NCBI GenBank assembly: GCA_037893225.1
Contig: JAZGUH010000057.1
Location: forward strand, 1,277,231 to 1,341,230
Direction: 5' to 3'
Source: Hippasteria phrygiana
Lineage: Eukaryota; Echinodermata; Asteroidea; Valvatida; Goniasteridae
DNA length: 64,000 nucleotides
The notes beneath the pieces were generated by a model, which was given only the letters and a program-made list of their open reading frames with translations, was not told the origin of the DNA and made no database searches. Positions 3,929 to 58,141 of this stretch are shown here, one piece after another. How positions within the stretch are numbered: the stretch's first letter is position 1; the number at the start of each line of letters is the position of its first letter. A program made the translations under genes and the position numbers.

Positions 3929-4129
3929 GTTTATTGGGTTAGGACGTGCTGGGGTGGAACGGAGAATTGAGCAGCTCCATTCCCACTGAAATATCCCATG
4001 TTATAGCATGGCGTCTCAACATTAGCCTCTCCTAACCAGATCCTACTGTCTGGCTTCTCGTGCCAACCCTGTTTTCACAAAATGACAGAAGGTGTTAGCA
4101 AGTCCCTGGCGCTATAACCAGGTGCTTCG

Positions 4130-4312
4130 GGTAGATGAAGCTCGATATCCTTGTTTGGTAGTTCATCTAGGAGAAGGACCACTCTGATTCCAAACCCGGG
4201 TAGGCGGAACTCGTTAGCCTTGGTCGGCAGTCTACCTATAGGAGAGGGACAACTCTGATTCCAAACCTGGGTAGGTAGTGCTCGTTAGCCTTGGTTGGCA
4301 GTCTACCACCAA
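4130..4312 (+). repeat. About 80-bp repeats in the 5' UTR of the non-LTR element
   Basis: Two to three imperfect units share GACAACTCTGATTCCAAACC, GGGTAGG and CTCGTTAGCCTTGG. They lie upstream of the endonuclease frame. Internal 5' UTR repeats in non-LTR elements sometimes carry promoter activity; that role is inferred here. Confidence 0.65.
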
Positions 4313-4802
4313 TAGGGGCCAGAGGCAGTAACTTCCATCTTGAAGCGGTTTTGTACCCCTCCCTGTCCTATTTGCGCTGTGAAGAGGCTAGGGCATTTTG
4401 TCCTGTCTTGTTTCAGTGCAAGGGGCTGGTTTTCCGTGTTCAAGGGCCTTGGTTTGCTTCTCTATTTTCTTTTCACCGACTGCTTCAGGCCCACCACTCT
4501 GAAGGGTACAGGTCGAAAACATGTTGCAGGTCGTGGCCGCCCGATAGTGCAAGATCCCGAACTTGGTGGTAATGCATCGAGAGGCTGATCTACCAGCGGG
4601 TGTAAAATGCTTGGGTAGCTGTACTGCCATGGACATGCATGGATGGCGTTCCATGCACCTATTTCCAGTTGCTTTCCCAAAGCCATCAGAGCGCCTCTGT
4701 TATTATAGCCGAGGGTTCGTTGGGCCTCCTGACGTCTACCTTGGGTGTCTAACTTGTTTTTGGAGATAAGTAAACTTTGGTTCCTTTCCATTTCTTTCAC
4801 TT

Positions 4803-5820
4803 ATGCCTATACAACCAAATGAAACACGCTCTCAACCTGCATCTAAAACGCCATCGCCAAGGGCTGCTAAATCTAAAGCTCTAAATGTATGTTTCTCTAA
4901 CGTAAGAGGGGTTAGGGGAAATTTCACTGCTATTCAGTCATTCCTGCAGTTGAACTCCCCAGACCTATTTCTTTGTGAGTCCCGCCTAGATAATGGGATA
5001 ATGTCTACTTCATTGACAGTGCCTGGCTACGTCCTACATAGACTGGACGCCCCACCTTGTCATGGTCTCTGTGTCTTTGCTAAGGCATCCTTACCCCTTA
5101 GCCGAGAAATCTCTCTGGAGGATGTCTCGCATGAATACATGTGCTTTTGTCTGGTACTTCTTCATTCCACTATTTATCTCTACTTTTTGTACCGTTCACC
5201 GTCATCACCAAATTGTACCATTTTTGACACAATATCAAATAGCATAGACTCAGCACTATCTCGACATCCTACTGCAGAGGTAATGGTCTTTGGTGACTTT
5301 AATGTTCACCACAAGGAATGGTTGGTTCATTCTCATAGTACAGATGCTCCTGGTATCAGCGCTTTCAACTTCGCTGCATCTCATGACTTCACTCGGCTCA
5401 TCTCAGCTCACACCCGTATTCCGGATCGTGTTACTGATAACAGGTATCTTCTTGACCTTTTCCTTTGCTCAAATCCCAACAACTGTACATCCAAAATTCT
5501 GACTCCGCTCGGAAATTCTGATCATGTAAACATTCAAGTTCAGGTTACTTGCACCTCATCACCAACTAGTTCACATCCACATCACCGAACCGTTCCTCAG
5601 TATGGCAAGGCCGATTGGGATGGGCTACGTTCTTTTTTTGGTGACGTCCCTTGGAACTCAGTGTTCTGCCTAAGTCCTTCCGAGGCAGCCAATGCATTTA
5701 CCGAATGGATTCAGATCGGTATGGATCTCTTTATCCCTTCTCAGACCTACCAAGTTAAACCACACTCTCAGCCGTGGTTCACTCCTACATGTGCTGCCGC
5801 AATTGCTCATCAAAAATATT
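4803..5820 (+). pseudogene. APE-type endonuclease domain of non-LTR retrotransposon
   Basis: This is the target-nicking endonuclease of the element. The start at 4803 is the first ATG of an open frame preceded by the 5' UTR. Visible APE-family features are NVCFSNVRG near residue 28, a CES motif near 60 in place of the usual ET, the YRSPSS segment near 130, the catalytic GDFNVHHKEW near 163, LDLFLCSN near 220, and SDHVNIQV (SDH catalytic motif) near 240. After a QPWFT segment the frame is lost near 5815-5825, close to a T-rich run, and the linker continues in another frame. No zinc-knuckle ORF1 was recognised upstream. Confidence 0.85.
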
Positions 5821-6233
5821 TTTTCACCAGTTTCATAGAGTTGGTTCGGCTGAGGCTCGTCATCAATTTCGTCGTGCAAGTAACAACTGCAAGAAAGTGC
5901 TAGAGAATGCAAAGCGCCATTATGCAGAGTCTGTTTGTGATTCCATCTCAACTCAACATCTTGGCTGCAGGGATTTCTGGAGAATTGCTAACAGCATCCT
6001 TAACAGAAACAAGTCAACAATTCCGGTTCTGTTCAATGGCCCTGAAGTACTCACTTCTGCAACTGATAAGGTCAATCTTTTTGCTGAACGTTTTGCTGCC
6101 AACTCTACACTTGATGACCAAGGTCAGGATCTGCCTGATAGCCTGTCTAGTGTCGACAGCAGGCTACCAACAATCATTATCACACCTAAGATGGTGGCTA
6201 AGGTCATCCGTCATCTGGACACTTCTAAAGCTC
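5817..6233 (+). pseudogene. Endonuclease-RT linker of the non-LTR element
   Basis: This frame continues the upstream endonuclease after a frameshift. It contains HQFRRASNNCKKVLENAKR and a stretch ending in MVAKVIRHLDTSKA, typical of the region just before the RT fingers. The frame then runs into an inserted element at 6234 and resumes at 7381 with TGIDRIPAVVLK. The junction across the insertion reads in frame, so the linker and RT were contiguous before the insertion. Confidence 0.8.
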
Positions 6234-6659
6234 TATTTGATTATTGTGATGTTGTTTGGTCTAATTGCTCAAATTCTCTTTCTGGCAGGCTGAGTAAGCT
6301 TCACAAATCGCCTTGCCAGAATGATTTTGAGTGCACATCACAGAACACACATTGCCGATCTACATGCTGCTCTTTCATGGACCACATTACAAAATCGCTG
6401 GCACAATCACAGAATGTATGAAGTTTTCAAATGTGTAAATAACTTTAACCCAAGCTACCTAAATAGCCTTTTTATACAGCCATGTCATTCAGCTGGTACC
6501 CGCTCAATATCAAATAGTTCTCTGCGCATGTCTGTTGCTCCCAAGACTAACGCGGCCAAGCGTTCTTTTCAATATCTTGGGACCCTGGGATGGAACAAGC
6601 TAACTGCCCCTCAAAGGAAGGCACATACTCTGTCCCAGTTTAAACATCTGCTCAATTAG
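6234..6659 (+). pseudogene. RT C-terminal domain remnant of the inserted non-LTR element
   Basis: The segment starts with FDYCDVVWSNC, a common motif of the region downstream of the RT palm in CR1- and Jockey-like elements. It continues, after one frameshift near 6310, with HRTHIADLHAALSW and LGTLGWNKLTAPQRK, ending in a stop at 6659. The frameshift and the missing RT core make it non-functional. It belongs to a different family from the element it entered. Confidence 0.8.
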
Positions 6660-7380
6660 TTACTGTGTCCAATTTGATTATTTAAGATTTGCTTTATCAT
6701 TTCCTTTAAATTTGCACGTTATCCAAATTAACTACACATGTACGTGTAACGTGCTTAATTGTTTTACTTCAATGACGTTCCACTTTTATTTTATTTTATT
6801 TTATCTTATGTTATTTTATTATTATTATATTTGGTTTTAGTGTGGATGTGTTCTATTTTGGTCATTTATGGTTTATTTATAATATTGTGTTTGCCTCTCT
6901 CTTGCCTATGTTACGGTATTTTATTTAATTACTGTTCCATTATCTTAATATATGTTGTTGATTTATATTTTTACTGCATATCAGTCATTAATTTAATATG
7001 GTTTTTATTTTTTTATCTGTTTATATGTTATATAGCTTTAAAAAACGTTTGTATGTGTTTATATTTTCGCTGTGTCAGAGTTATATCATTATGAACTGTA
7101 TTTGTTTTGTGTTTTTTTAAGTTAAATTATGTTTATGTTTTATGTAATCTTATTATTGTATACTAATGAATTGTTTGTTGTGATATATTGTCTATTAATT
7201 GCCTATCAGGTTTACATTAATTGCTGTTTATATTTTAATACCTGTATTTGATTTAAAAGTTACTTTCAATAATTGTTATATGACATATTATTGTTCTAAA
7301 TACAGGGCCCTCAAGGAAAGCAGTTTTTTAACTGAGGAGGCCACCCTGTTTAAATAAGACGGCAAATAAAAATAATAAAA
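6234..7380 (+). mobile_element. 5'-truncated non-LTR retrotransposon inserted into the first, TSD TAAAGCT
   Basis: The insertion begins inside an RT C-terminal domain and ends in an AATAAAA-type tail. TAAAGCT occurs just before the insertion (about 6227-6233) and again just after it (about 7381-7387), and removing the insert restores an uninterrupted reading frame in the host element. The 3' part (about 6660-7380) is AT-rich UTR and contains low-complexity frames of no significance. This is a classic target-primed, 5'-truncated insertion. Confidence 0.88.
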
Positions 7381-8854
7381 TAAAGCTACTGGAATAGACC
7401 GAATCCCAGCAGTTGTCTTGAAAATGTGTGCACCAGAATTGTCCTCTATTCTGTCTAAACTGTACAATCTTTGCCTTTCACAGTCAGTATTTCCATCTAA
7501 CTGGAAGCTGGCCTCTGTTGTTCCCGTGTTCAAAGGCTCTGGTGAAAAATCTGATCCTTCCAACTATCGACCTATCAGCCTTCTTCCCATTATAAGCAAG
7601 GTGTTTGAATGCCTGATCAACCAACAACTCATGAATTATCTAGAGGACAACGAGCTTCTAACTGATGCTCAATATGATTTCCGACATTCACGATCTACTG
7701 GTGACGTTCTGTCCCTGGTAACTGAGCATCTGAACAGGGCATTAGATCATCGTGGAGAAGCTAGGCTTGTTGCCCTAGATATTTCGAAGGCCTTTGATAA
7801 AGTCTGGCACAGGGGGCTTATCCATAAACTAAAGTCCTATGGCATCTCTGGTCATTTGCTTGATCATATTTCAAATTTTCTCAGCGATCGGCAAATCTCG
7901 GTGGTACATGAGGGCCGGGCCTCCTCGGTCCGTAGTATTAATGCAGGTGTTCCGCAAGGTTCTGTTCTGGGTCCGTCGCTGTTCTTGTTGTATATCAATG
8001 ACCTTCCTGAATCTGTCTCATCGCAGGTAGCCATCTATGCAGACGACTCAACATTGTATACTACATATCCTGGTCCTTTGACTGCTGCTTCTCGTGATCA
8101 AGCCAGTAATGTTCTCAATCAAGACCTTGAAAATGTTACTAACTGGGGTAACGACTAGCCTGTCACCTTCAATCAAAGGAAGACTAACTTGTTATCTCCA
8201 TCCAGTTCCAGATTCCCAGATCTTCCAGCCTTGTCAATGAGTTCCACACCTTTGCAGGAAGTTACCAACATCCGGCTACTTGGACTCGATATCACCTGTA
8301 AACTTTCCTGGGACAAGTATATCTGCGGTATTGCCAAAAGGGCCTCTCAGCGCCTAGGTTGCTTGTACCGAGCACAACACCTGCCTCCTGCTGCCATTCT
8401 CTACTTATACAAGTCCACAATACGTCCTGTTATGGAATACTGTAGTCATATCTGGGCTGGGGCCCCAGCTTGTCATCTCTCCCTGTTAGATAGAATCCAG
8501 AGGCGTGTTGTTAACTTGGTGGGACGCGATTTAGCTTCATCCCTGGAATCTCTATCACACCGTCGCTCTGTAGCATCTTTGAGCCTTTTCTACAGGTATT
8601 ATCATGGAAGGTGCTCCAATGGTCTTTCTCTGCTTATTCCTTCTAACCGTCCCATTGGACGCACCACTCGCTCTTCTGTTCGTCTACACTCGTTTACAGT
8701 CACTGTCCCCAAATCTAATACTGTGAGGTATTCGTCCAGTTTCTTCCCACGAACTGCCTCACTTTGGAATTTCTTGCCTGCGTCCTGTTTCCCTGCTACT
8801 AACAATCTGTCCCAGGTCAAACGCAACATTAACGGTTACCTGTCTACTCTATAA
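7381..8854 (+). pseudogene. Reverse transcriptase of the non-LTR element, broken
   Basis: The RT resumes with TGIDRIPAVVLK after the insertion. Motifs in order are SNYRPISLLPIISKVFE, a finger motif with DFRHSRST, the first catalytic aspartate in ALDISKAFDKVWH, AGVPQGSVLGPSLFLLYIND and the YADD box in AIYADDST. A TAG at 8156 follows VTNWGND. The C-terminal domain continues in another frame from about 8160, with LLGLDITCKLSW, STIRPVMEYCSHIW and LDRIQRRVVNLVG, ending at 8854. At least one stop or frameshift makes it inactive. A Jockey/CR1-like affiliation is inferred from the motif set. Confidence 0.88.
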
Positions 8855-10333: not shown

Positions 10334-11551
10334 CTACTGGAGTTGCTGAGAGGTAGATTGTGAGGCCTGCGAGGCAGCATCGCTCGCTACCCGCAACGCC
10401 GCTCTCCCAGCACGTCCCTCAGTCTGAAGGACTTCTCGCAGGTAGCAGGCTGTGAAAGTGTTTGACATCTTCCAGCATGCTGCCTGGGTGATATCGGCCA
10501 AGGGAACTCCTTTGAAGAAGGCCCATGACGTCGCCACTGCTCTGACGTCGTGAGCATGCATGTCAGAGCAGGCGGATGATGTATCCGGCCAGGTCTTTGA
10601 AGCCGTTCGAATAGCAGTCACAATCCAGCTCATGATGGTGCTCTGTGAGGCTGGACGATATGGAGGGGTGGAGGTGACGAACAGGCTTGTCGCCTTGCCC
10701 CGGATCAGTTCGGTCCTGTTGAGGTACCACTTTAGTGTTCGAACAGGGCACCATTTCCTATCTTCCAGTACGGATGACTGCGAGCGCATGTCTGGTACGA
10801 AGATGTCTGGTGGAGCAAAGGACTCGGACTGGTTCTTCGTGAGAAAGGACGCATTTGGGACTAGACGTACCCCATTCGGTTCCCATCGAATGTGGCCCGG
10901 ATCAACAGATAGGGCATGTAGTTCGCTACGACGCCGTGACGTAGCCACTGCTAGCAAGAAAGCGAGCTTGACGGGTAAGTCGAACAAGGTCGCCTGGCCC
11001 ATTGGTTCGTAGGGGCGCGTGATAGCGCCCCCAGAACGTTGGAGAGGTCCCAAGAAGGAAGGAGCTTACGAGTTGGTGGCCTCTCTAGAAACATTCCTCG
11101 AAGGATGTGACCTAGGGTATGGTTACTGGTAATTGATGACCCGTCCGCGAAACCTAGATGGACGGCCGCAATGGCCGAACGGTAGTTCCGGATCGTGGCC
11201 ACTGTGAGGCCAGAGTTGAACAGGTAAACAAAGAAGTCACCAATGTTGGTTATAGGTGAATTGACTGGATCAATCGATTTCCGTCCACACCATTTGCAGT
11301 ATTTAGGCGGCTATTGTAGACTTTCTATGACTGCGTGCTGCGAATACGGCAGCGTCCTGCGAAAGGCCCGCTGCTCGGAAGGAGCGTTGGACAATGTCCA
11401 GCACATCAGGTGAAGATCCCCGGGTGCTGGGTGAATGAACCTCGAGCGTGGCTGAGACAGAATGTCCGGTCGAGGTGGAAGAATTAATGGTCGGTGCACC
11501 AAGAGCCGGATCAACCGGGGGAACCAGGACGCGGCCAGAACGGGGCGACAA
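10334..11551 (-). pseudogene. DIRS tyrosine recombinase, broken
   Basis: This is the integrase of the DIRS element, a tyrosine recombinase. The N-terminal part (from 11551) includes DVLDIVQRSFRAAG and ends at a premature TAA near 11303. The middle part, VATIRNYRSAIAAVHLGF, is read at 11205-11050. A frameshift near 11000-11050 precedes the catalytic part, which contains the first catalytic arginine in SRRRSELHAL, the H-x-x-R box in HAHDVRAVATSWA and the candidate nucleophile tyrosine in TACYLREVLQ. The R, HxxR and Y residues are all visible, so decay is by frame breaks rather than loss of catalytic residues. Confidence 0.88.
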
Positions 11552-13284
11552 GGAGGATCCTACATCGTTCCTGTTCTATTTTCGTCAGTACCCGAGGGAT
11601 CAGGGATATCGGCGGAAAAGCGTACGCGAACATCCATTCCCAGGGCATCGATAGGGCGTCTACATGCCACGCCCTCGGATCTGGGTATCTGGTGCAATAC
11701 ACCGGCAGCTGGTTGTTGACCGCTGACGCAAACAGGTCTACATGAGGGCGGTCGATGAGCGTGAAGATCTGCTCGACCACCTGGGGATGTAGTGTCCACT
11801 CTGTTGGTCGGATTACTCCCCTAGAGAGGGCATCGGCTATCGAGTTGTCCGCTCCTGGGATGTGGAAGGCCGACAACGTGATGTTGGACCTTATGCACCA
11901 ATGGAGTACTTTCCACGTCAGGAGGCAGAGCTGGGGTGACCGTGTGCCTCCCTCGTGGTTGAGGTATGCCACAACTGTGACATTGTCGCATTTGATTAGG
12001 ACAGACCGATCCCGGACGTTCGGTTGAAAATGTCTGAGGGCATTGAATACCACCAGCATCTCCAGAACATTGATATGTAGGGATCGCTGGTCCGGAGTCC
12101 ACTCTCCCGCGGCTTGGCGCGGGTAAAGCAGAGCTCCCCAACCAAAGCCCGAGGCGTCCGTTGTTACGGTTACCGTCAGTTGTGGCTGCCGAAAGGTCAC
12201 TCCGCGCATGAGGTTTGACTGATCGGACCACCACCACAGGTGTGGGCGTAGAAATACCGGAACCGGAACCATATGATGGATGAGGTGGTATTTCGGTCGG
12301 AAGTGAGCGAGGAGCTGGAGCTGGAGCGGGCGCATGTGGAGTCGGCAGTGAGGCACGAGGTCCACCATGCTTGCCATGAGGCCGAGCAGTTTCAGCCATG
12401 CTGTTGCTGGGGCCAATGTTACTGCGAGGAAGAGATCGACGCACTGCTGCAGATTTTGAACGCGCCTGTCCGTCAGGAAAACCATGTTCATTCTGAGGTT
12501 CATTACAGCCCCTAAGAACGTTGGGAGTTGTGTAGGAATTGGGTGTGATTTGTTTCTGTTTATCAGAAACCCAAGACGCGTGGCCAACTGTACGGTTGAG
12601 ACGAGCGCTCGGCTGGTTTCGTGCCGTGAACAGCCCACGATCAGCCAGTCGTCCAAATACATGAAGATTAAACATGCCGCTCGCGTGGAGGGCTGCTCCC
12701 ACCGACTTCACAATCCTTGTGAAAACCCGAGGAGATGTTGACAGTCCGAATGGGAGAGCCGTAAATTCGTAAGTCACGTTTCGGTAACGGAATCGCAGGA
12801 ACCGATAGTGACTCGGAAGAATGGGGACATGAAGATACGCGTCCTGCAGGTCGAGTGTAGCCGCCCATGCTTGGGCCGGAATCGAACCGAGGACCACCCA
12901 GAGCGTGTCCATACGGAACCGTTTGGGGCGGATGAAGCTGTTTAAGGGCTTCAGGTTGAGAATAGGCCACCATGTTCCCGTGTCCGTTTTTGGTGTGAGG
13001 AAAAAGGACGATAGGAAACCAGGTGACCTCCCCGACCGCGGAACCACGCGTATCGCTTTGTTCCGGAGGAGAGACTCGATTTCCGACTTTAGCGCCAGGC
13101 GTTTGGCGGGGTTGGATGGAGTTTCCGTTTGACGAATTACTGTGTCCGATGGGGGATGCTCGTGAATTCCAATGCGTACCCGTGCTTGACTGTCTTGAGC
13201 ACCCACCGGTCGGAGACGACCTGGGACCAGGGCCCTACGAAGGCTTGGAGGCAGCCACCCATGGGCCTGGCTGTGGGGAGCCAC
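11511..13284 (-). pseudogene. DIRS reverse transcriptase and RNase H, one frameshift
   Basis: The first frame (13284 to about 12640) gives fingers and palm: FFLTPKTDTGTWWPILNLKPLN, the catalytic ATLDLQDAYLHVPI and FTALPFGLSTSPRVFTRIVK. A frameshift near 12640-12660 leads to the second frame, which begins with the YLDDWL box. RNase H follows with VTTDASGFGWGALLYP, HINVLEMLVVFNALRHF, IKCDNVTVVAYLNHEGG and HIPGADNSIADALSRG. A C-terminal segment, RPHVDLFASAVNNQLP, is the conserved region found downstream of DIRS RNase H. Everything except the single frame change looks intact. Confidence 0.92.
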
Positions 13285-13484
13285 CAGGGTGTGGGTGCGT
13301 CACTTGCGCCATCCTCCTGAAAACCGGGGGGCCGGCGGCTTAAAGGTCTGGCCACTCGGTCGGAAGGATTGGCCTCGGCGGGGACCCGTATATGGAGGGC
13401 GTGCCGAAGATTGAGCTGTTGACGCGGCGGGAAAACGCCCGCGGGTTCTGCCCTGTGGAAGCCTGGAGCGTTCTGCTGGGGCCC

Positions 13485-13510
13485 GGGGGGGGGGGGGGGG
13501 GGGGGGGGGG
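13485..13510 (-). repeat. 26-base G run inside gag
   Basis: On the coding strand this is a C run encoding the proline tract of gag. Length variation here would readily shift the frame. Confidence 0.85.
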
Positions 13511-13778
13511 TCGACTTGGCCTTTGGTTTGGGCTGTTCTGTTGATTTCTGGGCAGGCTTGCGAAGATTTATCTTATCGGTAGCCTCTATACACTTCGCCT
13601 CGGCCTCCATGGAGTCCTGGAACTTATTGGCGAATAAATCCGTGCCAAATAACGGTAAAGCCTCCATCCGCTTCCTGGCCCCTTCCGAGGGGAGGTACAG
13701 GGAATCGAGGATATTGGCCCGACGGACGGATGTTGCCATCACCGAAATACGAGCGAACTGCTCCGAAGTCAGGCGGAG

Positions 13779-13843
13779 GGTTTCGTCAAGGCAGCGGAAG
13801 TCTGCGGAGGGTTTCGTCAAGGCAGCGGAAGGCTGCGGAGAGC
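13779..13843 (-). repeat. 31-bp tandem duplication that breaks gag
   Basis: The unit GGAGGGTTTCGTCAAGGCAG plus 11 further bases occurs twice in a row. Because 31 is not a multiple of three, the duplication shifts the gag frame exactly where RCLDETLR appears in both flanking frames. It is a likely inactivating mutation that arose after insertion. Confidence 0.85.
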
Positions 13844-15842
13844 ATGTCCGCAGGAACGGTAGTCCCGTCCTCACAGCCTCTGACCAGGTACTCCGACAGC
13901 AGTAGGAGGAACGAGGTCGAGCGCATTCCAAATCTGGAGGCCCAGTCTGTCTTCCTCAAAGTGTCCTCGATCTTATTTCCAGTACGATCGGTAAATAGGG
14001 CACGTGTCGAACCCGACCCACTACCATCAGCGGCCAGCTTGTCTCTGGCGGAGTCAGGGACTGTTGGTACCGTAAAATAGTCGTCAAAGTCCTTCGACGG
14101 GAAACAGAAATATCCGTTGGTACGTTTGTCGAAGGACTGCCACGTCTTGCGATCCGCTACGGCCTGGATATGTTTGATGCAAAACTGGTCCGGGGGTAGG
14201 ATCGGAAAGGGCGTCGAGCGTCCCGCAGGGATATCCGATGCGGTACGCTGTTTGAACGATTGCTGGGCCGAGGGTTTGGGTTCCTCAGCGGCAGTGTCCA
14301 GAAGACCCAAAACCCGGATCATGTCGCGTTGAACCAGACGCAACTGTGTCTCAATGGGGGAGAGATGATGTGTGTCAAGCATGTCACCCTCTGCATCAGA
14401 CAACCCCTGGTCCGAACCCGTGGCCTCCGTAGCTGGTGTCCGCTCACTGTGGAGGGGCACCGCCGGCACTGAATCCCTATCCGACCCCGAGAAAACTGCT
14501 GAAGGGTGGATGGAAATGGCCGGAGGTGAGGCCGGGGCACGACCCAAAGCCTGGGGGAGATGTTGTTGGTCACGACGAACCCATCCCTGGACGTCCCGAG
14601 TCGGCGGAGCGACACCGGGGGCGACACTGGGGCGAGTTGACCTAAGTGCGGGGCCGGCTGGGGGACAAGCAGGCCCGCGCTCGGGGCGAGTTGGCCCGCA
14701 ATGGGGGCGAACTGTCCCGTGTCCGGGGCGAGTTAATTGGCCCACTGGCGCGAACCCCGTAGTTGACAAGGTCGACAGGGACACGGTAAACGCCTGGAAA
14801 GCCTGTAAGAGATCCGCATTGGAAACGGACTCCGCATGTTTGTGGTGTTTCTGGGAGCGGTCCGAGGACGATGGTGAGTCCGAAGAACGGCGACGCTTCT
14901 TACGCGATTTCCCTTTCTTGGCTGGGCGACCCCGCAAAACCTCAGTATCCGAAGGCTCAGTGGAGGGCGGGATCGCTGGAATTCCGGAGCATCGGAGTAA
15001 GTCCGAGGCAGAGGAAAAACTCGCAACGGGGACCCATGGGTCCCCCACCGAACAGCCGGGGGCTAACAGCCCGGGCGGATCAGTGATGGTGCTGCCCGCC
15101 AGGGTGGCACCGCTACCCTGGGTCCCGTGGTCATATGCCAGTGACCCATGGGTAGAGGCGGGCAGATTGGTCACGCCGAGCGTGGCCGGAGCCTCGGCCA
15201 CACTGCCCGGGATCAGGGGGTGGCCGGAGGCAAAGGAAGGCAAATCGGCGGGGAGGGTGTCCCGCTTGCCTTTGAAGCTTTGGACCGTGGTGCGCGATTT
15301 TTGGCGACTCTTACCGGTCAGCTTCTTAGTCGGCTGGTTTTCCCCGTTATCCGCGGCCGGGGGAACTGGCTGATTATAGCCCGATCCCCGGCCTATGGGG
15401 AGGCCACCGCCCGTTTCCGGGCAGCGGAGTGAAGTCTGTGTAAGGGGGAGGGTGGCCCAGGAGGTGCGGGCAGTCCCGTGGAACCCACGTCCACGGGTAC
15501 CGCTCCGCACCTAGCCGACTTAAGTTTCACATTTTTCTCCCTTGAAGCCATGTCTATCTAAATAACATACTAAACACAAGAAACAAACTCTACAATCTTT
15601 ATTCAAGAATACTTAGCAAATGTACGGCAGACGTAGACGTAAACTGCGTGTATAACGCCACTGAAAAATTTCACGTCCTACGCTGATCAACGCTAAGAGA
15701 AAAGAGGAAGCTAACATGGCGGGTGTACCGCGGGGCATGGTGGGAAGGCTATTGTGTGAAATCTTAGCGAGTGTATTGCACCCTCTAGGGAAATATGCAT
15801 TAGTAGTGGCTCTACGGGTAAGATGAGCGCTGTAGACTACAT

Positions 15843-18209: not shown

Positions 18210-19509
18210 AACCAATTAAGCTACAATGTACAGACTGCAAACTTTGCCTCCCTCATTATTTTTCCCGAGTGGAGGAGATCCCTGCCGCTTTTTGACAATT
18301 CTGGCTATTTTGGCTAAAACGTTAATTCTTTTGAAAGTTTAGAATTTTCTTGAATTTCTTTTTTTCACGATCCCAAAAACTGACATGTTCTTGAAAAAAC
18401 ATTATTTTGCAAGAAAAAACATTCATAATTCTAGGGAAATACTGAATTCTAGGGAGCTTATCTGACTATTGTTGGGGAGAATGAAACCCCTCCCCCAGGG
18501 GAATGAAACTACTCCCCTTTGAATTACACCTGCAGCAACACATAAGCCAGTTTTCCCTTGTGTATACTGGAGAGAAAAATCGTACCTCTCAAAGGACCTC
18601 AAAAATGCTCTTGAGCTGAAACTTACCCCACTTCTCGACCTCTCGGGTTGAATGGTCATACCAGAGCTGCACTGTGACAAATGCTTGGCTGTGAAACAAG
18701 AGACATTCCAACAGGCTATATTATACTGTAAAAGTTCTACACGTACGTACATTGTGCTGGGAATAAAATTTGCTATTTTGGCCTACATGTACATTGTATG
18801 TTGTTGCATGGAGGTACATGTACATGCATGCAGGTTGTTGCAAGTGTACCTATCTAAAACTGACTACAGCCAGAAAGTTTTTTGGAAGGAGGTGGGAATT
18901 TAAATGAATACTGTATTTTGATAACCACATTTTTAGAACCTGATAAGGAAAATTATTGTAATTTGTTTTTAAATTTCGGTCACTCTTGAAAACATTATCG
19001 TCAATGAGAAAGACTCTGCTGTCTTAATTTGTATCCATTATATATTTCAGTGGCTTCAAGTTGATAAATACAGGTACATGTAGTTTGTAACAGTACCATT
19101 ATTTCATTTAAAGCTCTAATGTCTGTGCTCTGGCTGAAAATTTCAAATTAACCCTATAATCTCACCTAAGGCTACAAAATACTAGTAGTAGTAAACTGTA
19201 GTATGCAGTGTACTCTGGCACACTTGCAGTATTGTTAAGTAGTAGCAATATTTAGTACTGTGTACTGCATACAAATAAATGTTGTTGTAGTTTGTAGTAT
19301 ATTGTACTTTACCCCAAATGAATGCTTAGAGGATGCTGGAGTTGATAGATTTCCTCATACAAATGAGGAAAACTGTATTTTTGAATGAAGAAACGATTCG
19401 TACATATTGCAATCTAGTTGGTCTTAACGCGTGATGATTGCATACCCTCCTTCTCTCCGTGCCAAAATGGAGCCAAATACCTTATCTATCAAAACCTATT
19501 GAGTGATAG
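18210..19509. other. No gene; degenerate TAGTA/TGTAGT simple sequence
   Basis: The stretch 19170-19310 is rich in degenerate TAGTAGTA and TGTAGT repeats. A short ACATGTACATG run lies near 18820. No coding, RNA or transposon feature was recognised elsewhere in it. Confidence 0.4.
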
Positions 19510-19517
19510 GTTGTAAC

Positions 19518-20983
19518 TAGTGCTGGGCGATACGACGATAAAATCGCGATGATGCAATACTCGCCGCCCAAAAATCAAAATCGGCAACATGTTTCTTTAA
19601 ATCGAAAAATCAAGATATCGCCGATATCGTTTTCTAAATCGACGATTTTTTTCGGAATCCCTTTTTTCCCTTAAAAAATCAGTGATACTTCTTGTTACCA
19701 GCAAATTTGCTAAAATTAATTTCCTTGTAAGCGAGGTTCAAGTCGAAGTGACATCATCATTTTGAACTTTTTATTGATAGTGTAAATAATGCGCCTATTA
19801 ATTGCTTAATTGCAATTTTTTCGGTTTAAAGTCTAAGTTTATAATAATGGACAACTTGAGCTGTCAGTAAATCTGCGATAAGATGCAAAATCTATTAAAA
19901 CGTTCTAAATATCTAAACAATCAGCAAATTAGCCAGCCCAGCTCTGGCCATTTGAAGCACGATATGTGGGCAAGGGAACCCCCCCCCCCCCCCCCCCCCT
20001 CAGGAATTCTTTTAAGAAATCTAGGGGGTATGTAATAGGTAACAATAGTCTGTGTGTATAGGGAAATGGCTCTGGCTGGTAGCGGTAACAAAGAAAAGAC
20101 TTTGATCCAGATATCCCCAGACTAAGCTAGAGGCTTTTTCACACTAGACAAAATCTCGGGGGCGGCCCCGGGGCGACGCGGGGGTGAGAATGTGTGATGT
20201 TTCACACTAGCCATTTTCGCCCCGGGGCCACCCCCGAGATTGGTCTCGCCCCGGGGAAAACTCACCCCTGCTCCAGGCCAGGGGTGAGATTTTTCAACCC
20301 GGGGCGAGACCGATCTCAGGGGTGGCCCCGGGGTTAAATGACTAGCGTGAAACGTCGCCCCGCGAGCGGGGTTTCGTACAACCTGGGTTGAGAAACAGGT
20401 GGTCTTGACAAAAGAATTCCAAAGGTCCTGTCAAAGCGCGCGCTATTGTTAATTGTATACAGCTTGGCCGAAAGCGCAGCGCCATTACTCTTTTGTGTTG
20501 GTCATTGTGTTCCTGGAATCTCAGGAATTATTTTCAGCGAGGAGGAAGTTAGGAATTTACTGGCCATCTGGGGGTCGATGAAATACAAACTAGTGTGAAA
20601 CGCTCATGCCCAACCCCGGGGCGAGCTCGCCCCAGGGTTGGCTGAGGTAGGTTTGCGCGAAACGAGTGTGAAACGACGCGGGGTTAAACTCGGAGGTGAA
20701 AACGCCGGGGCGGCCCCGGGGCCACCCCGGCGTTTTCACCCCGGGGTTCGGCGCTCTAATGTGAAAAGGCCTTTAGACTACGCTGTTTCACAATATTGAT
20801 GGCTATCCTAAGAACGGCCTCAAACAATGACTGCCGACAAACACGTCAGGCGATTATGTAGTTATGAACGAACTTTTGCGACATTTCAATCATGCTGAAA
20901 TTTGTTGACGATTTTATCGCCATATCGGCGATATCGAGAGGTAAAAAAATCGACTACCAAAAAAATCAATATCGTCAGCCCTA
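19518..20983. mobile_element. Non-autonomous hAT-like element, 8-bp TSD GTTGTAAC
   Basis: The perfect 8-bp duplication GTTGTAAC occurs at 19510-19517 and 20984-20991. The ends are TAGTGCTGGGCGATACGACG on the left and TATCGTCAGCCCTA on the right, matching the TAGGGCTGGGCGATA type of hAT termini. ATATCGCCGATAT-type inverted sequences lie just inside both ends. No transposase is present. A second, 5'-incomplete copy lies at about 49220-49816. This copy carries a C run near 19979 and a nested insertion at 20131-20772. Confidence 0.88.
20131..20772. mobile_element. GC-rich foldback element nested in the hAT element
   Basis: The termini AGGCTTTTTCACACTAGA and TCTAATGTGAAAAGGCCT are inverted repeats, flanked by TAG on both sides (20128-20130, 20774-20776). 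The interior is full of self-complementary GGCCCCGGGGC-type blocks and repeated CACACTAG motifs. The paralogue at 49607-49632 has the same flanks without the insert, which gives a natural empty site. No coding frame is present. Confidence 0.87.
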
Positions 20984-20991
20984 GTTGTAAC

Positions 20992-22555
20992 ACACAAGCT
21001 ATGGGAGAGGAAGGAGGTTGGTTTTTTGATAGGTTGTGATAGTTATAACAGTACATGTACATGGAGGAGGGAGGAGGGTTAACACTGAAAAATAGGAGCG
21101 CCACGCTCCTGTTGCAAAAATTGAAACTGATTAACTGTGCTACTTATCTTCAATCGATTTTTTGTGGAGTGTCTCATTGGAAAGCTCTTAGGCGGCTTGT
21201 CATTTGGTCCTGACCGTTCTTTCGCGAAAAGTTCGCTATAATACCGATAAGTTGGCAGTTGTTAAGGAAAGGAAAAGTCGCGAACAGCACGCCTGTGCGC
21301 AGTCGGGCGCAACGAGGTTTAATGAGCTAGCCCAACCGGGCCCTATTGTTGCCGAGAGATTACGTCTTGTGAATAAACATGAGCACGGGGAGCTATTTTA
21401 AATACTGCGTTCTGTCCGCTGACAAAACGTTGGGAACCTTGCATGTCGAAATGGCGAATTGGATGGTTTGTCGATGACGTTTACAAAAACAAACCAAGGA
21501 CGAAAGGCCAACGTACGGCGGCGAGGCGTGTTTTTTTGTGTTGTCATTGCAAAGTAGGCCTACATAAAAAGTAATTAATGACAATGTAAAGACACATTTC
21601 TGCCAGTGAATAAATTCTGTAAAAGAGAAAGCCGTATAGAAGGCTTACTGCTTTTATAAAGGTGTTATTTAAGGGAGGACGCAATATTGTTTTCCCCGTT
21701 CCCACGCGTGCAGACGGGTTCCTTACCGTTCTTCACGGGAGGCAATAAAACTGAACAACTAGGACCGGATTCTTTTTTTTAGGGATTAAACAAAACTTCT
21801 CTTTGAATCTACAGAGAGGTTGTTTTGCCTTTTTAATTGTGCTGAGCAGTCGCTCTGAAAAGTAAATAAGCCCTGATACGATCTCCGGCTTTAGCTATTG
21901 ACGTAAAATGAACGTGGTTCACAAAACAAGTCATTTTATATTCCCTCGTTTTGAAAGTATTTTCGTCAGATTTACTGCATGCACGATTTCTGCCATCGGA
22001 GTAGGCCTATCTACGTTACGACCCTTTCTCTGTTCCGTAAATTTAATTTTTTTAAATGTATATATAAAACGAAGTTCATTCATCACGCGTAGAAAAATCA
22101 CGAAAGTACACAGTGAAAGCAAACCAAGATTAAATTTTCAACACAATGCGACTTTTTTTCGAAGCCATGTTCATGCGTGGACAGTAAATATGTTCTGATT
22201 ATTGCTTTACTGATTGACAATGTTATTTTTTCCGAAGAATGTCTTACATGTAATTGGTTTTGAAACGTCTTAACGTTTAGGCAATTTAGATATTCCGTTG
22301 GGCCTAAATATTCCAGACAGAATCCACAAGACTATTAATGATATTAACGTATTTTGTTTTTACTGTGTCTATGTTTGTGAGCAGTTATGTTAATACTTCA
22401 TTGCAATCTACCCCGGGTACATATTCTTTTTCAATGGGAGGGTTTCGGTTCAGGTAAAATAAGAATTGAAGGGTTTTTTTTGCCCCTGCGAAACTTACGT
22501 GCATGTAGTCCTACACTGTCCGTTGTTTTAAATCAGTTTCCATAACAGTTAATTG
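20992..22555. other. No supported gene
   Basis: One short frame (21204-21401, + strand) contains KERKSREQHACAQSG and GPIVAERLRLVNKHEHG, which is protein-like, but it matches no family known to me and lacks splice support. The segment TTGTCATTTGGTCCTGACCG near 21198 recurs inverted near 27140-27160. Nothing else was recognised. Confidence 0.3.
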
Positions 22556-22559
22556 TATT

Positions 22560-22820
22560 ATATTTGTCGAAATATTCCCTGGAAAATGTAGTTGACAAAA
22601 ATTACATTTGCAACACTATCGTAAATATCGCAATTCTTCAGTTCTGTTGCCATGGTAATTATGTTGCCTGGGAACGGCGAGTTACTGCTCTGTCTGGTTT
22701 CATGCGCGTGGGAAATTCCCCAGTTGACTTTGAGACTTGCAACACGTGCACTACGGCTGTTTCAGTCTCGGGTCAAGTTGATGTAAGACATTTGAAGAAT
22801 GTACATAGAAGTAGTTTGTA
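22560..22820 (+). repeat. Dispersed repeat D, copy 1 (others at 25365-25600 and 33905-34145)
   Basis: Shared blocks are CTGGAAAATGTA...GACAAAAATTAC, CTGTTGCCATGGTAATTATGTTGC, a GGGAAATTCC region, CAACACGTGC and TACGGCTGTTTCAGTCTCGG. The copy at 25365-25600 is in opposite orientation. CCAAT- and CACGTG-like sites recur in the family. Termini are not defined. Confidence 0.7.
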
Positions 22821-22954
22821 GGGATGAACCTCACTGAACATAGACCTACATGCTATCAATGCACGTTATCAACAATTTCATTGAGCACATCGTAAGTTTA
22901 TCTGGTTATGGTTTTAGGCCATCAGCCTGGGGGGGGGGTTGGTCGTATATAAAC

Positions 22955-23285
22955 GAGGGGAATAATGCTCATGGTGATTTTTGGCAAGGTATGCACCCCT
23001 GTAGTTGGAAAATATTTGATGGCTTTGCAGCGGTGACAGCTTTTTGGGTGCTATCACCCTTTAAAAAAAAATGGCCGCCATCATGCTTGTTACCACATTA
23101 TGAATAATCCGGTAACAGGCATATTGGCAGCCATTTTGAAGAAAAACAATTGAAAAAGGTAATAACACCAAAAAAACTGCCACTGCTCACGCTGCAATGC
23201 TATAACACATTTTCCAACTCTAGGTGTGCATACCTTGCCAAAAATCGTTTTAAGTATTGCTCCTTTCGATCATGATACCCGTGGC
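22955..23285. mobile_element. Foldback MITE
   Basis: TTTTTGGCAAGGTATGCACC on the left pairs with GTGCATACCTTGCCAAAAA on the right. Further in, GTAGTTGGAAAAT, CTTTGCAGCG and AAAATGGCCGCCAT pair with diverged partners on the other arm. The two arms fill almost the entire element, as in foldback MITEs. No ORF is present. Confidence 0.75.
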
Positions 23286-23359
23286 CCGACGTTGATGGCC
23301 TTTTTGTAACTTTTGTTATGTGATGTATTAAAAAAATAGCCGTAGGGCAACCAAATAAG

Positions 23360-23590
23360 AAAGCAATGAACTCGTATCACGCACCAAGAGCGTGCGCGCC
23401 CCATTGTACATTTTTGTACATGTTCTGGGCCGGCCGGCCCCATACGCTATGCGTATGCACTGCACCAGATGCATAAAGTACAGTACACACACAACTGTAC
23501 ATGTACAATGTACAATGTGGGGCTGTGCATGTGCTAGCCAGCCGGCCGCCCGCACGCGGTGTATACGGTCATGCTACCGGGCGCTACATC
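23360..23590 (+). repeat. Dispersed repeat E, copy 1 (second copy at 34200-34312)
   Basis: ATCACGCACC, GTATACGG and TCATGCTACCGGGC are shared in order with 34200-34312. In both places it follows repeat D, with a foldback MITE between them here, which suggests D and E are parts of one larger element split by the MITE. Confidence 0.55.
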
Positions 23591-23598
23591 AACTCAAC

Positions 23599-23880
23599 AT
23601 GCAGCGCGCGGTGGGACTGAGGTTGCTGGCGTCACGGATGCCTTCTCGATCTCTTCAGAGTCCAGGCCTTGTGCCTATGAATTTGCAGGCAGATTTTGAG
23701 CTGTGTGTAGTTGCAAACAATGCTGCACCATCACGACGGGCTGATGAAGACAACTTGCAATGGACTCATGACACTGAAGTGTCAAGCCAAGAACCCCAAC
23801 AGATGTTACAGACCACACCACAACGTTTGTCGGCCTCTGCTCGGTTAATTATACCGGTACTACATTGTAATTGTATGGGC
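23599..23880 (+). other. Coding-like segment with arginine-rich N-terminus, unassigned
   Basis: An open frame from an ATG at about 23599 begins MQRAVGLRLLASRMPSRSLQ, an arginine-rich, acid-free start resembling a mitochondrial presequence. It continues with protein-like sequence (VANNAAPSRRADEDNLQWTH). No domain was recognised and no clear splice donor follows. It could be a first exon or chance. Confidence 0.2.
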
Positions 23881-23994
23881 ACGGACTCGTTCGTTCTTGA
23901 CAATAGGAGTTGTGGTTATCATGACACTTCCAATTATTTTACCATTCCATTTTACTATTTCGAAGCCTTCTGTTATTATCAGGATTATCACTAG

Positions 23995-25364
23995 TAAACA
24001 ATCATTTCTTTATGATTTTGACTTTGGCTTTACGTATACAACCTTGCTGAAAAAGAATTTGAAACTAAATGAAAGTGTGAACATGATTTCTGATATATGA
24101 TTTGCTGAACGATGTACTTTTGCCAAATTTCTTTGTTGAGCTTAAAACATATCCAGTTAATGTTTGCTTCGTTTATGAAGATTTTAATGTGTCGACATTT
24201 TAGCATTAAAACAACCTAAGTCTGATAATAAAACAGACAATGGTAAGTTATCTTCCCTTGTGATTCAGTAAAGTGTGTACTGTATATTAAATACATATCA
24301 AGTGAACCCTGACAATGTGATTATTCCATTTTTCACAATACCCCACTAGTTGCACAGATTTAAAACTCCCAAAACTGCAGTACCAGAGGCAAACCTGAGT
24401 AATACAAATTATACTCGGACGATTTATGTTACTTTAACATCTGCAACCATTCTTACTTTCTTTGATTAAATTATGAACGTGGTAATTAAAAAAAAATCGA
24501 AAATTCCTTCCTAAGTCTAAGTTGTGCACACTAAACAGCCGTTGGCAACTTAACTCCAAACAATCGTCTTGGCGCGTCAAAAGAAAGACGTAGGCAGTTT
24601 GGCTCATAGCCAAGAATACGTGTAGAAACTCTTCCCAGCACAAACAGTCAAGTCGTTATGACGACGACATTACTTCACCAATACTGTGTTATAACAATGT
24701 TAAGAATAATAATTAGAAGTATACCCTTTAAAAATAAATGTTTTCGGCTCCGATTAAAACATTCGAAATTCATTAATAGGTCCATTTCTCAAATAACCTT
24801 GAAGTCTTCCTCAGATTTTTAGTCTTCCACAGTTTATTACCTTCAAAAACAATAACTAAGCATAAGTCCAGTAAACTTACCCCTCCCTAAAATGAAGACC
24901 AGGACTTTTCAAAAGTATTTTATTAACAAGTGTAATGTACATTTATATTTAGCCTAAGAATATAATGGCCGTATACCGAATAGATGAGAACAATTAATGC
25001 ATATTTCCTCCCAAATCAGAAAACCAAAAATATATTTCACCCTTAAATCTTTGAAGTTTGTTCTTTTTCTGTAACTAGAACGGCAAAGCTGACATGACTC
25101 GCTGCTAAAGGCGGGAGCCCCACACCAATAGGTCTATTCATCCAATCCCGAATTTCATTCTATCCAGTTTAATATAACAAAACACATTTGAAATATTTGG
25201 CGTGAGATTGGGTAAGGTAAAAGGGCATCGAGGAGTGTCTGCTTTTTATAAAATCTTCATAAACGAATCAAAACATTACTGGATGAGCTAAACGTAGTGT
25301 ACACGATTGGTAATCCTCAAATTAATTTTTTTATCAACATATGCACTACCATCCTGATTAATGC
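23995..25364. other. No gene recognised
   Basis: AT-rich sequence with no recognisable domain, RNA or transposon termini. Confidence 0.4.
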
Positions 25365-25600
25365 CCATGCGTGAACTTGACCAGAGACTTAAACAGCCGC
25401 TGTGCATGCACACCTTCCACATGTTGCAAGGCTTGGGGAATTCCCACCACGTGCACGTGCGGCGCAAGTAGGTCTACCCTACATCAGACCAATCAGAACG
25501 GCGCGCGCACGGTATCAATGCAACAGAATTGCCAGGGCAACAAACCAGAAGAATTACAATTTCTGCTACTGCAGTGTTGCCAACTATTTTTTGTAAACTA
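25365..25600 (-). repeat. Dispersed repeat D, copy 2 (inverted)
   Basis: It contains the complements of the repeat D blocks: ACTTGACCAGAGACTTAAAC, GGGAATTCCCACCACGTGCA and AATTGCCAGGGCAACA. Orientation is opposite to the copies at 22560 and 33905. Confidence 0.7.
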
Positions 25601-25609
25601 TTTTTGCTG

Positions 25610-27250
25610 AGAATATTTATGAAATTTAGACAAATATAATACAACTTGTAGGCTTACTTAACCCCTTCCCCACCTAAACACGGAAAACCCAGCGGTATTT
25701 TGAAAAAAACATTTTTATCTCGGGATCGAAAACATTATTTTTCCCATTGTATTATAAATAACTGTCATCTATTCAAAACGTTGCTGTGTAGAATTCACCA
25801 CGGCAAACCCTCTTCCCCTTTCTGTCCACCAAAACCGTTAATGGCACGTAACTTTAAAACACAAACACACACAAAACCAAAATTATACACCGGCAAACAG
25901 GCAAAAACCCAAGAAAAAACTAAGGGTTAAGAAAACGGAGATCAAAACAAACGTATAATACCCAATGATCGTTCAGGGGTGGGATTGGCAAAAAATTTAA
26001 AATCCACGAAAAATCCACGAGGACCCCAGATCAAGATATATTATTTGCCTAAAAAGGCACCCCATTAAAATATCCATTATTGGTCTACATCCACTTTTAC
26101 TGGTAAACCCCCCTTTTTGAAAACACCTCAGGAATTCCAGATTGCAAAAGAGATTCTTTAAAAATTCGAAAATCCCGAAAAAAAATCCTGACAAATCTCA
26201 CACCTGTTCGTTACACTGAAAGTTATTGCACGCCGGCCAATCGTGAGAACATCATTTTTGGAGGAATAATCAATGGCTGTATAACTAGTACACTGGACGG
26301 CAATCAGCGTAAGCTTCGCAAGTACCTTCAAATTCTTATTTTGCCCATAATTTATGGGGTAGAATGCAACAGACGTCCACAAAATTGCACCACGAAAATA
26401 CAAAAAAAATATTGAAAGCTTAATCAAAAACTAAATATTTTCACATTAGTTTATACAAAATCTTTTAGCTGCATATTAGGGAAAATATCGCTGAAATTCC
26501 TCAACCATTTTCGGCATGAGTAGTTTTTGTTGTTCTAGTCTTGTTATCCAGAGCAAAGTAACTTGTGTGCAGCCCCTTGTCTTATTTTGAATTATGCATT
26601 TATTTTTGACGACAATGCCGGGGTCTTCGTGTCTTCCAAACCATCGGCACACCTGCTTGGAAAAAGGGAACAAATAGTCAATTATAATACACAAGTCTGA
26701 TGCTGGCGATAATCTCAACAATAGAGCAAAGTCGCTGACTAAAAAATAATACATGTACCATTAAAAAGGCCGGCAGTTCCGAACTCTGATTGGCACAAAT
26801 TGGAGTAACAATGGAGGACTCTCAATACGAGCCAGCCGTTCCGATCGCGGTTTGGCCGGTCTTTCGAGTTTTACATTGATGTTTTAATAGCCGACCGATC
26901 AATGCTGCCTATCGTCCCGACCGCGGTTTGGCCAGCTTTTTCAGTTTACATTGATATTTAAATGACCAAACGAGTATTTGAATACACCGTTCTGATCGTG
27001 CAAGAACGGAATATGCATGACTTCTAATTTACATACACCGTTCTGGTCGCATACTGTCGGTGTTGTCAAGGGCTCTTTTGTTAAGGAAGGATTAAAAAAG
27101 CTCGCTGTTTCGAGCGAACTGGACGCGTGAATAACGGTCAGGACCAAATGACAAGCCGCCTTATCTAATGCTAACAAATTAGAAATTCAATTTGAAAATG
27201 TATTTTTTTTGGTGTGCCAAGGCCAAAAAGCATGGACACCGCAACTAACA
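25610..27250. other. No supported gene; two short GTTTGGCC repeats
   Basis: CGATCGCGGTTTGGCCGGTC and CGACCGCGGTTTGGCCAGCT, 26840-26940, form an imperfect tandem pair each followed by TTTACATTGATNTTT. Similar sequence recurs inverted at 33600-33770. No exon could be recognised between here and the TIR exon. Confidence 0.4.
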
Positions 27251-27360
27251 AAGACAACACAATTATATAAGGCAACAACTGGAGGGGCTATCCCCAGTCC
27301 CCTGTATATATATAGATTTGCATAGCGGCTTGTGCACGAAGCTTGAAGTTATAAGTCTGA

Positions 27361-27370
27361 CAGTACCTTC
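27361..27370 (-). other. Splice donor of the TIR exon
   Basis: GAAG followed by GTACTG. Downstream of it the open frame loses family-like content (RLITSSFVHKPLCKS), consistent with intron read-through. Confidence 0.6.
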
Positions 27371-28011
27371 GGTCATGTCTACATATCCTATGCTCGTTGT
27401 CTTGAAAACGTGGCCAGATCTGACTGGGGCTGCAGGTGCTCTATCGGCAGGGGCAGGCATCATCGTTTCGTAGGTATCCTCAGGTGGAAAGTAAGTGTTC
27501 TCCAGTCGGTTATCGTCCCCTTTCACACCCACCATTTCAATATAGTCACTCTGGATAAAGTCCTCACCCTCGTTCATTGTGATGTACGTGTCCTCCATCT
27601 CCCCATGCCTCCGCTGCTGTTTCTCGTCGTTGGCATCGTGAAGGACCTTCAAGACCACTTTGCTTATCTCACTGCTCCCCGCCACCGCCTCTACCTGGTA
27701 CCAGTCTTTGGAAGAGGGGATCTTCTCCAGGAGTTCCTCCATGTCTGCGTCGTCCACACCACAGATCAGCCCCACCACCTTGTGGACATAGTCCTGCATC
27801 TTCGGCGTGCATTTTTGGAGGAAGCGGGGTGAGATGATCACAACAGTGACCAGCGACTCCTGGATGTTCTGCAGGGTGCTGAGGTGGCTGGGGAACTCTG
27901 TGATGTCCTCTGAGTTCTGCTGGATTTCAAAGTCCTTAAAGATGTCAAAGAGGTACTCACACCACTGGATGGTGTCCGCGGTGTACAAGATGGTCAGATC
28001 ATATGGATCAC
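27367..28011 (-). CDS. PIK3AP1-like: Internal exon of a BCAP/BANK1-like PI3K adaptor: TIR domain plus four YxxM motifs
   Basis: This is the only convincing host gene segment. It reads DPYDLTILYTADTIQWCEYL, the first strand and helix of the TIR-like domain of BCAP (PIK3AP1) and BANK1. The later KVVGLICGVDD and IPSSKDWYQVEA match the conserved LLCGV...W-W-E block of that family. The TIR-like part covers about residues 1-118. The tail (about 130-214) carries YITM, YIEM, YETM and YVDM, the consensus for PI3K p85 SH2 binding once phosphorylated. An acceptor (TTTTGTGTTGCAG, ending at 28012) and a donor (GAAG then GTACTG, intron from 27366) delimit 645 nt. The exon begins by completing a codon with two bases and ends one base into the next, so both introns are phase 1. 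BCAP in vertebrates links B-cell and Toll receptors to PI3K; that role here is inferred. Neighbouring exons were not found in the window. The DBB domain that follows TIR in vertebrates is not in this exon. Confidence 0.85.
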
Positions 28012-49822: not shown

Positions 49823-49970
49823 ACTAGCGCCCACCCGAACAAAGATACCGACAATATGGGAGACAGCCAACATAGGGCAAGATAGCTCAGTTGGTAGAGC
49901 GCTGGTATGGTAACCCGGAGGTCGCAGGTTCGAATCCCGCTCCTGCCAGTTTCTTTGTTCACTTTGAAAA
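49823..49970 (+). mobile_element. tRNA-derived SINE, copy 3, best preserved
   Basis: The head begins TAGCGCCCACCCGAACAAAG and has GGGAGACAGCCAACATAGGG. The tRNA part has A box TAGCTCAGTTGG (49883-49894) and B box GGTTCGAATCC (49928-49938), and the tail CTGCCAGTTTCTTTGTTCAC ends in TTTGAAAA. The anticodon stem is mismatched and there is an unrelated 5' head, so this is not a functional tRNA gene. It has internal pol III promoter boxes. Confidence 0.88.
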
Positions 49971-57330: not shown

Positions 57331-58018
57331 AAATTTGAGTCGAGTTAGCTTTCTTAATTATGTGTTGCGCAATTAAGCTACCGTTCAAATCCTGTTCTAG
57401 ATCAAGGCCAAGATAGTTGACTGATTTGGCTCTTTTAATATCAATGCCATTGTATGTTATGTCGAGAAAATTATTGTTACGCAAGTTCCTTTTATTAGCA
57501 AATAATATGGAATGAGTTTTTCCTAGATGGAGTGAAAGCCTGTTATCTATGAGCTAGTGGTTGACCTTTGTGAGTTCTACGGTGAGTTTCTGTTCTACAT
57601 TGTTAGCATTTTTGTCTATAGCTATTAACATAGCGTCATCTGCATATAGCTGTAGTTTACAGTTTACAGAACATGGCATATCATTGATATATGACAAAAA
57701 CAATAGTGGTCCTAAAATCGAGCCCTGTGGAACACCACAGGCTAGATTAAGTTCTCCTGATCTAATATTGTTTATCTCAACTACCTGTGGTCTATGCGAA
57801 AGGTAAGATTTAAACCAGTCTACTGTATTGTCTGCAAACCCCATAGAAGTCAATTTATATGCAAGAATTTCATGGTTAACAGAATCGAAGGCTTTTTGAA
57901 GGTCTAATATAATCGCCCCCACATAATTACCTCTATTCGATTCGGACCTAATAAAGTCTGTAAGGTGGATCAGGGCGGTTTCAGTAGAATGTCGGGATCT
58001 AAAACCTGATTGAAATTC
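57302..58018 (-). pseudogene. RT palm of the second non-LTR element, with a premature stop
   Basis: It begins YEFQSGFRSRHSTETALIHL, continues AIILDLQKAFDSVNHEIL (catalytic D), CGVPQGSILGPLLFLSYIND and LQLYADDAMLIA (YADD), then VNH followed by TAG where tryptophan is expected. The frame continues with LIDNRLSLHLGKT and SVNYLGLDLEQDLNGSL. It would join at the N-terminal side to the fragment at 59215-59540, from which the Penelope-like insertion separates it. Confidence 0.88.
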
Positions 58019-58101
58019 GTACAATATGAAAATGAATAAAACTGCTGCAAACTGCTGACTGACTGAATGGACCTGAAATATACAAATAAAAAAATTAGCT
58101 G

Positions 58102-58141
58102 GCCTGACGTTTCGAACTTAAGCAAGTTCTTTCTCAAAGGC
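58102..58141 (-). ncRNA. Hammerhead-like motif of the Penelope-like element
   Basis: GCCT/AGGC stem I, TTGAGAA core, stem II GAACTT/AAGTTC with a GCTT loop, GAA, palindromic ACGT, C at the cleavage site. Positions equivalent to C3 and G8 read T and A, which keeps a possible base pair between them. One extra A precedes stem II. Penelope-like elements are known to carry hammerhead motifs near their ends; this is a diverged example, and activity is uncertain. Confidence 0.5.

Follow-up and report, generated by a model that had tools for sequence, protein, structure and literature searches.

Among the closest described systems are human BCAP (PIK3AP1) and Drosophila Dof (stumps). In BCAP, the DBB domain dimerises and is required for the interactions of the TIR domain with MAL and MyD88, as well as for the negative regulation of TLR signalling, according to PMC7128310. 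Three C-terminal YxxM motifs of human BCAP are described as spaced for the tandem SH2 domains of p85, 10-30 residues apart (PMC6937578), and residues 1-434 are reported to hold two of the four YxxM motifs of the protein (PMC5241739). In Dof proteins, the DBB is required for binding to the activated receptor, and the bilaterian Dof/PI3KAP proteins mostly have a TIR domain and are candidate docking proteins of FGFR (PMC7260276). Since most of these bilaterian sequences have a TIR, this domain alone does not make the protein described here a member of the Toll pathway. In one published tree (PMC9695028), the protein of Acanthaster is the outgroup to the clusters formed by vertebrate BCAP and BANK1.

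The window studied here (the whole stretch of 64,000 nucleotides from the sea star Hippasteria phrygiana) contains an exon that is very probably exon 2 of the sea star Dof/BCAP/BANK1 orthologue, near to those of Acanthaster and Patiria, with a protein running from a TIR domain through a linker with four YxxM motifs to a DBB, an ankyrin-like region and a proline-rich tail. Judged from the orthologues, the whole protein would be about 950 aa long. The family is a known one, of which the gene is a lineage variant, and the unusual point is a candidate PI3K-docking cluster between the TIR domain, which it directly follows, and the DBB. Apart from the position of this cluster, the gene is ordinary.

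Exons and domains of the locus

The sequence-only reading had marked an interval and given no strand for it. Splice sites and an open frame confirmed the interval as one exon of 645 nt whose borders had been drawn correctly, exactly at 28011..27367 on the minus strand, and the opposite reading of the interval on the plus strand contains 9 stops. The acceptor is ttaattttgtgttgcag/GTGATCC (ending in gtgttgcag/GTGATCC) and the donor GACCGAAG/gtactg, the phase is 1 at both ends (1-1), and the translation has 215 residues, including a tail of 91 residues with the YxxM motifs. The number of the exon was assigned by comparison with the orthologues; by the same comparison exon 1 would hold only a few codons, and a search of the upstream minus strand with one pattern modelled on the first residues of the Acanthaster protein did not find it.

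The BCAP-type TIR-like domain that had been proposed for the exon was recovered as a match to TIR_3 (PF18567), with 36.7 bits compared to the cut-off of 26.1 (Table 1). No other Pfam family was found in the exon 2 translation at E up to 10, so an unrelated family as the identity of the exon was rejected. The closest sequence match in the PDB was 5for, the TIR of human BCAP, both for the single exon sequence, where the other two rows had E above 0.2, and for a three-sequence profile, where it was the sole row. Two structure predictions were of low confidence (mean pLDDT 36.3 and 47.8), which is too low for a fold search. An N-terminal TIR of the BCAP class, a feature of most bilaterian members of the DBB family, is present in exon 2.

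Exon 3 sits 8.7 kb downstream of exon 2 in the right order, strand and phase. It has the acceptor tttcacag/CC and the donor GGG/gtaagt, and the split codon is completed to alanine as in the orthologues, giving the spliced frame ...GYVDMTE-AKHLSQCSSGMTIQPERSRSG. By comparison with the orthologues, exon 3 leads into the DBB and holds approximately its first 9-10 Pfam positions, with the body of the domain outside the window; the Pfam DBB starts at residue 231 of P0004 (Acanthaster) and at residue 235 of P0005 (Patiria), within the stretch coded by exon 3. Coding and splice-site scans of the minus strand, in which exon 2 and the transposon ORFs stood out, did not recognise exon 3, and it was found only with the orthologues. 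Exon 2 as a terminal exon was rejected, as the similarity of P0002 is lost past the donor and exon 3 follows in phase. No ankyrin repeats of the gene were found in the window. No exon 4 or later exon was found there either when the 18.6 kb below exon 3 were searched with the relatives (best E 0.6), and the gene therefore seems to run past the low-coordinate end of the window. An ORF at 4078-4284 (-) looked DBB-like by eye and was dropped on inspection, having a repeated stretch in common with its neighbourhood.

Transposon-like ORFs and a predicted tRNA lie elsewhere in the window. The large ORFs at 10337-15510 (-) have the appearance of a DIRS-type element, and the 574-aa ORF at 13789-15510 (-) matched no Pfam family. 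The GIY-YIG ORF is similar to Penelope-like elements, and the tRNA-Thr could be either a genuine gene or a repeat derived from a tRNA.

Table 1. Features located in the window, with strand and supporting evidence
Feature	Position	Strand	Evidence
Exon 2, TIR domain and YxxM linker, phase 1-1	27367..28011	-	Splice sites, open frame; over the whole exon 73% identical to Acanthaster and 69% to Patiria
TIR_3 (BCAP-class TIR), exon residues 5-101	27710..28000	-	PF18567 E 5.2e-9; 5for E 3.1e-4, or 1e-4 with three-sequence profile
YxxM motif 1, YITM	27575..27586	-	YxxM in 5/7 sea star and both sea-cucumber-type sequences
YxxM motif 2, YIEM	27533..27544	-	7/7 sea star sequences; gap in two sea-cucumber-type sequences
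YxxM motif 3, YETM	27461..27472	-	7/7 sea star sequences; absent in two sea-cucumber-type sequences
YxxM motif 4, YVDM, shortly before donor	27374..27385	-	7/7 sea star sequences (YINM in P0006); absent in two sea-cucumber-type sequences
Intron 2, 8678 nt, GTACTG...TCACAG	18689..27366	-	Exon 2 donor and exon 3 acceptor; P0002 similarity ends at the same donor position
Exon 3, 62 nt, AKHLSQCSSGMTIQPERSRSG with split alanine codon	18627..18688	-	tblastn 81% over 21 residues to Acanthaster and Patiria; in phase
Non-LTR retrotransposon-like ORFs	4770-8854	+	Exo_endo_phos_2 E 1.5e-11, RVT_1 E 3.7e-32, separate frames
Large ORFs	10337-15510	-	Weak RVT_1 E 1.2e-5 and weak Phage_integrase E 0.0019, both below cut-off
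tRNA-Thr (ggt)	49876-49948	+	ARAGORN prediction, bacterial setting
RVT_1 ORF (in stretch 57557-59221)	57557-58117	-	E 8e-24
GIY-YIG ORF	58580-59221	-	24.0 bits, cut-off 22.6

Relatives of the exon and the YxxM cluster

A database search with the exon gave one relative among 101 candidates (P0002; 53%, 229 aa), and a profile search added P0003 with 38% identity. P0002 keeps all four YxxM motifs and its similarity stops right after the donor; in P0003 the residues ahead of the point where the shared exon begins are unrelated, and each of the two has the look of an exon that a gene caller translated. A third search, which admitted longer candidates while scoring them on the exon, found six full-length proteins among 418 candidates (E 1.7e-26 to 3.8e-98): P0004 from Acanthaster planci (PIK3AP1-like) and P0005 from Patiria miniata (BANK-like), both with the exon identities of Table 1, P0006 (861 aa, 54% exon identity), P0007 from Asterias amurensis (52%), P0008 from Asterias rubens (51%) and P0009 from the sea cucumber Apostichopus japonicus (PIK3AP1-like, 38%). 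In the databases, these orthologues go by the names PIK3AP1-like, BANK-like or uncharacterized. No relative was present among the 45 and 51 pattern stretches that were matched in scans of viral and prokaryote contigs. In the exon tree, which has a midpoint root and one fork open, the window grouped with Acanthaster and Patiria (support 98/99) among seven sea-star-type rows, and Apostichopus and P0003 were set apart (100/100); the sea star and sea cucumber labels of P0002, P0003 and P0006 rest on this tree.

In each of the six full-length relatives, TIR_3 and DBB (PF14545, E 2.9e-20 to 9.2e-27) are both above the Pfam cut-off, and the DBB comes after the YxxM region. Ank_2 was matched in five of the six, in every case below the Pfam cut-off, and was not listed for Apostichopus. 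Precomputed Pfam lists name the DBB in just three of the six, and the rescan of the relatives therefore matters, as it finds the domain in P0006, P0007 and P0008 (E about 1e-22). When a nine-sequence family profile was compared with the PDB, it matched 6sws, the DBB of human BCAP, at E 2.5e-8, as well as ankyrin structures, the best of which was 4rlv at E 1.4e-14, around positions 340-440, and 5for was not among the best 60 of its 110 matches. The TIR_3 match and the six full-length PIK3AP1/BANK-like relatives support the earlier assignment of the exon to a BCAP/BANK1-like gene of an invertebrate.

The four motifs YITM, YIEM, YETM and YVDM, which had been read in the same exon as the TIR, were all confirmed, at residues 143, 157, 181 and 210. 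The spacings between successive motifs are 14, 24 and 29 residues and thus fit the 10-30-residue rule for tandem p85 SH2 domains as described for BCAP (PMC6937578). Tyrosine motifs for docking of SH2 domains (YxxM for PI3K) are a feature of the DBB family, and exon 2 has four YxxM motifs. At least four YxxM motifs arose in a fraction of 2.5e-5 when the 91-residue tail was shuffled 200,000 times, and in a fraction of 1.9e-4 when all 215 residues were used. Similar shuffling of the linker between TIR and DBB gave P values from 5e-5 to 1.1e-3 in the five full-length sea star proteins, and 0.13 in Apostichopus, which has one motif.

Among the seven sea star sequences (the window, P0002 and P0004-P0008), YxxM is held at 26 of the 28 motif places, and the exceptions are both counterparts of motif 1 (YVPV in Acanthaster and YIEV in Patiria). 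The Y and M residues were the same as in the window in 46 of 48 cells (0.958; eight positions in the six other sea star sequences), compared to 0.458 at the xx positions, 0.406 elsewhere in the linker and 0.673 in the TIR of the same six sequences, with gaps scored as mismatches and the first part of the TIR missing in P0002. For this comparison within the linker, permutation gave P 4e-5, which is only a guide because the sequences are related. A chance origin of the motifs was rejected by the shuffles together with the conservation across the sea star sequences. Outside the linker, the part after the DBB has one YxxM in three of the full-length sea star proteins and none in the other two, and the Patiria protein has an extra YQKM inside the TIR. 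A fifth linker tyrosine, in ENTYF (27491-27493 of the window, minus strand), is conserved throughout the nine sequences of the alignment, which include the sea cucumber types; it does not form a YxxM and is possibly another SH2 site.

Size of the protein and the receptor it may serve

The sequence-only reading had proposed a compact, minimal adaptor joining TIR signalling to PI3K. This claim fails because an exon with the start of the DBB (18688..18627, minus strand) follows in phase and because the DBB is found in all six full-length relatives, from which, together with exon 3, a DBB and an ankyrin region would be expected at the Hippasteria phrygiana locus as well. As a result that would count against it, the reading had named transcripts with a DBB/ankyrin region between the TIR and the YxxM motifs; such a placement was not seen in the relatives, and the difference from vertebrate BCAP in the order of the parts holds, since the DBB comes after the YxxM cluster. 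A short TIR-YxxM protein might be made at least as an isoform by retention of intron 2 or by polyadenylation within it, and would then be the minimal adaptor of the sequence-only reading. The open frame continues from the donor through 34 further residues to a stop at 27263, and ATTAAA and AATAAA occur 374 and 658 nt beyond this stop, where such signals often arise by chance in AT-rich sequence. We regard such a short protein as very improbable, as P0002 keeps the exon and has a tail past the donor without similarity, exon 3 is in phase and each of the six full-length relatives continues into the DBB. Lower still is the probability that what remains here are remnants of a decayed gene from which no protein is made. 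The 18.6 kb below exon 3 without an exon 4 or later exon and the abundance of transposon ORFs in the window would agree with such decay, whereas two consecutive exons are intact, ordered and in phase with consensus splice sites, and none of the four motifs has been lost, where Acanthaster and Patiria have three. What was tempting to see as a new minimal Toll-to-PI3K adaptor is in our preferred reading a full-size member of a known family.

For this full-size protein, the mechanism can be outlined from the family. The sea star protein would be recruited by its TIR, its DBB or both, with the DBB dimerising the adaptor and the two domains docking it on a receptor complex once that is activated. 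The tyrosines of the linker would be phosphorylated by a tyrosine kinase, and tandem p85 SH2 domains would bind pairs of pYxxM 14-29 residues apart, bringing PI3K to the membrane. For the sea star protein we infer expression, phosphorylation, p85 binding and dimerisation, and likewise its receptor. With gene and architecture unchanged, the protein could function in the manner of Drosophila Dof and dock to FGFR, or to some other receptor tyrosine kinase, without connecting Toll or TIR receptors to PI3K, and we consider the chances of this to be even. It is favoured by the bilaterian Dof/PI3KAP proteins, which as described mostly combine a TIR with a candidate role in FGFR docking (PMC7260276), and by the outgroup position of the Acanthaster protein in the published tree (PMC9695028). 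On the other side, the TIR is BCAP-class by sequence and human BCAP is reported to act in TLR signalling (PMC5241739, PMC7128310). Dof-type docking to receptor tyrosine kinases is as plausible as a link to Toll signalling.

Position of the cluster compared with BCAP and Dof

Turnover of docking motifs in flexible linkers is common. Tentatively, and as a scenario we hold to be rather unlikely, the PI3K-docking array of sea stars may have been built by motif gain within a single exon, in the stretch that links TIR to DBB. In that case PI3K would be recruited beside the receptor-engaging TIR and not through the C-terminal part of the protein. Exon 2, with phase 1 at both ends, would form a TIR-PI3K cassette complete in itself, and if the following exon junction preserved the frame, it might be skipped as a unit to produce isoforms without the TIR and without most of the PI3K sites. 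Our searches of main texts in the open literature brought up no account of echinoderms with YxxM motifs clustered between TIR and DBB. With this system, it becomes possible to test what the position of docking sites does in TIR/DBB adaptors.

Our comparison of the cluster covers sea stars and two sea-cucumber-type sequences. The sea star PIK3AP1-like and BANK-like proteins (P0004-P0008) have the same order of TIR_3, YxxM linker, DBB and ankyrin-like region, with exon 2 identities of 51-73%, and the linker has three YxxM motifs in Acanthaster and Patiria and four in P0006, P0007, P0008 and the window. P0009 from Apostichopus japonicus and the exon P0003 are alike in having TIR_3 above the cut-off and motif 1, and P0009 also has the DBB, but both differ from the sea stars in that motifs 2-4 are absent and the linker has only one YxxM. 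Drosophila Dof is a DBB-family member with a DBB, ankyrin and SH2-docking tyrosines (PMC7260276); it acts downstream of FGFR, and our comparison with it is one of published descriptions. Human BCAP is similar in the sequence matches of its TIR (5for) and DBB (6sws) and in YxxM motifs that recruit the p85 of PI3K, whereas the p85 SH2 sites reported in PMC6937578 are in the DBB, ankyrin and tail, not in the linker between TIR and DBB. The locus points to a tidy case of docking-site turnover, in which the domains are the same and the candidate PI3K cluster of sea stars occupies another linker than the sites reported for human BCAP.
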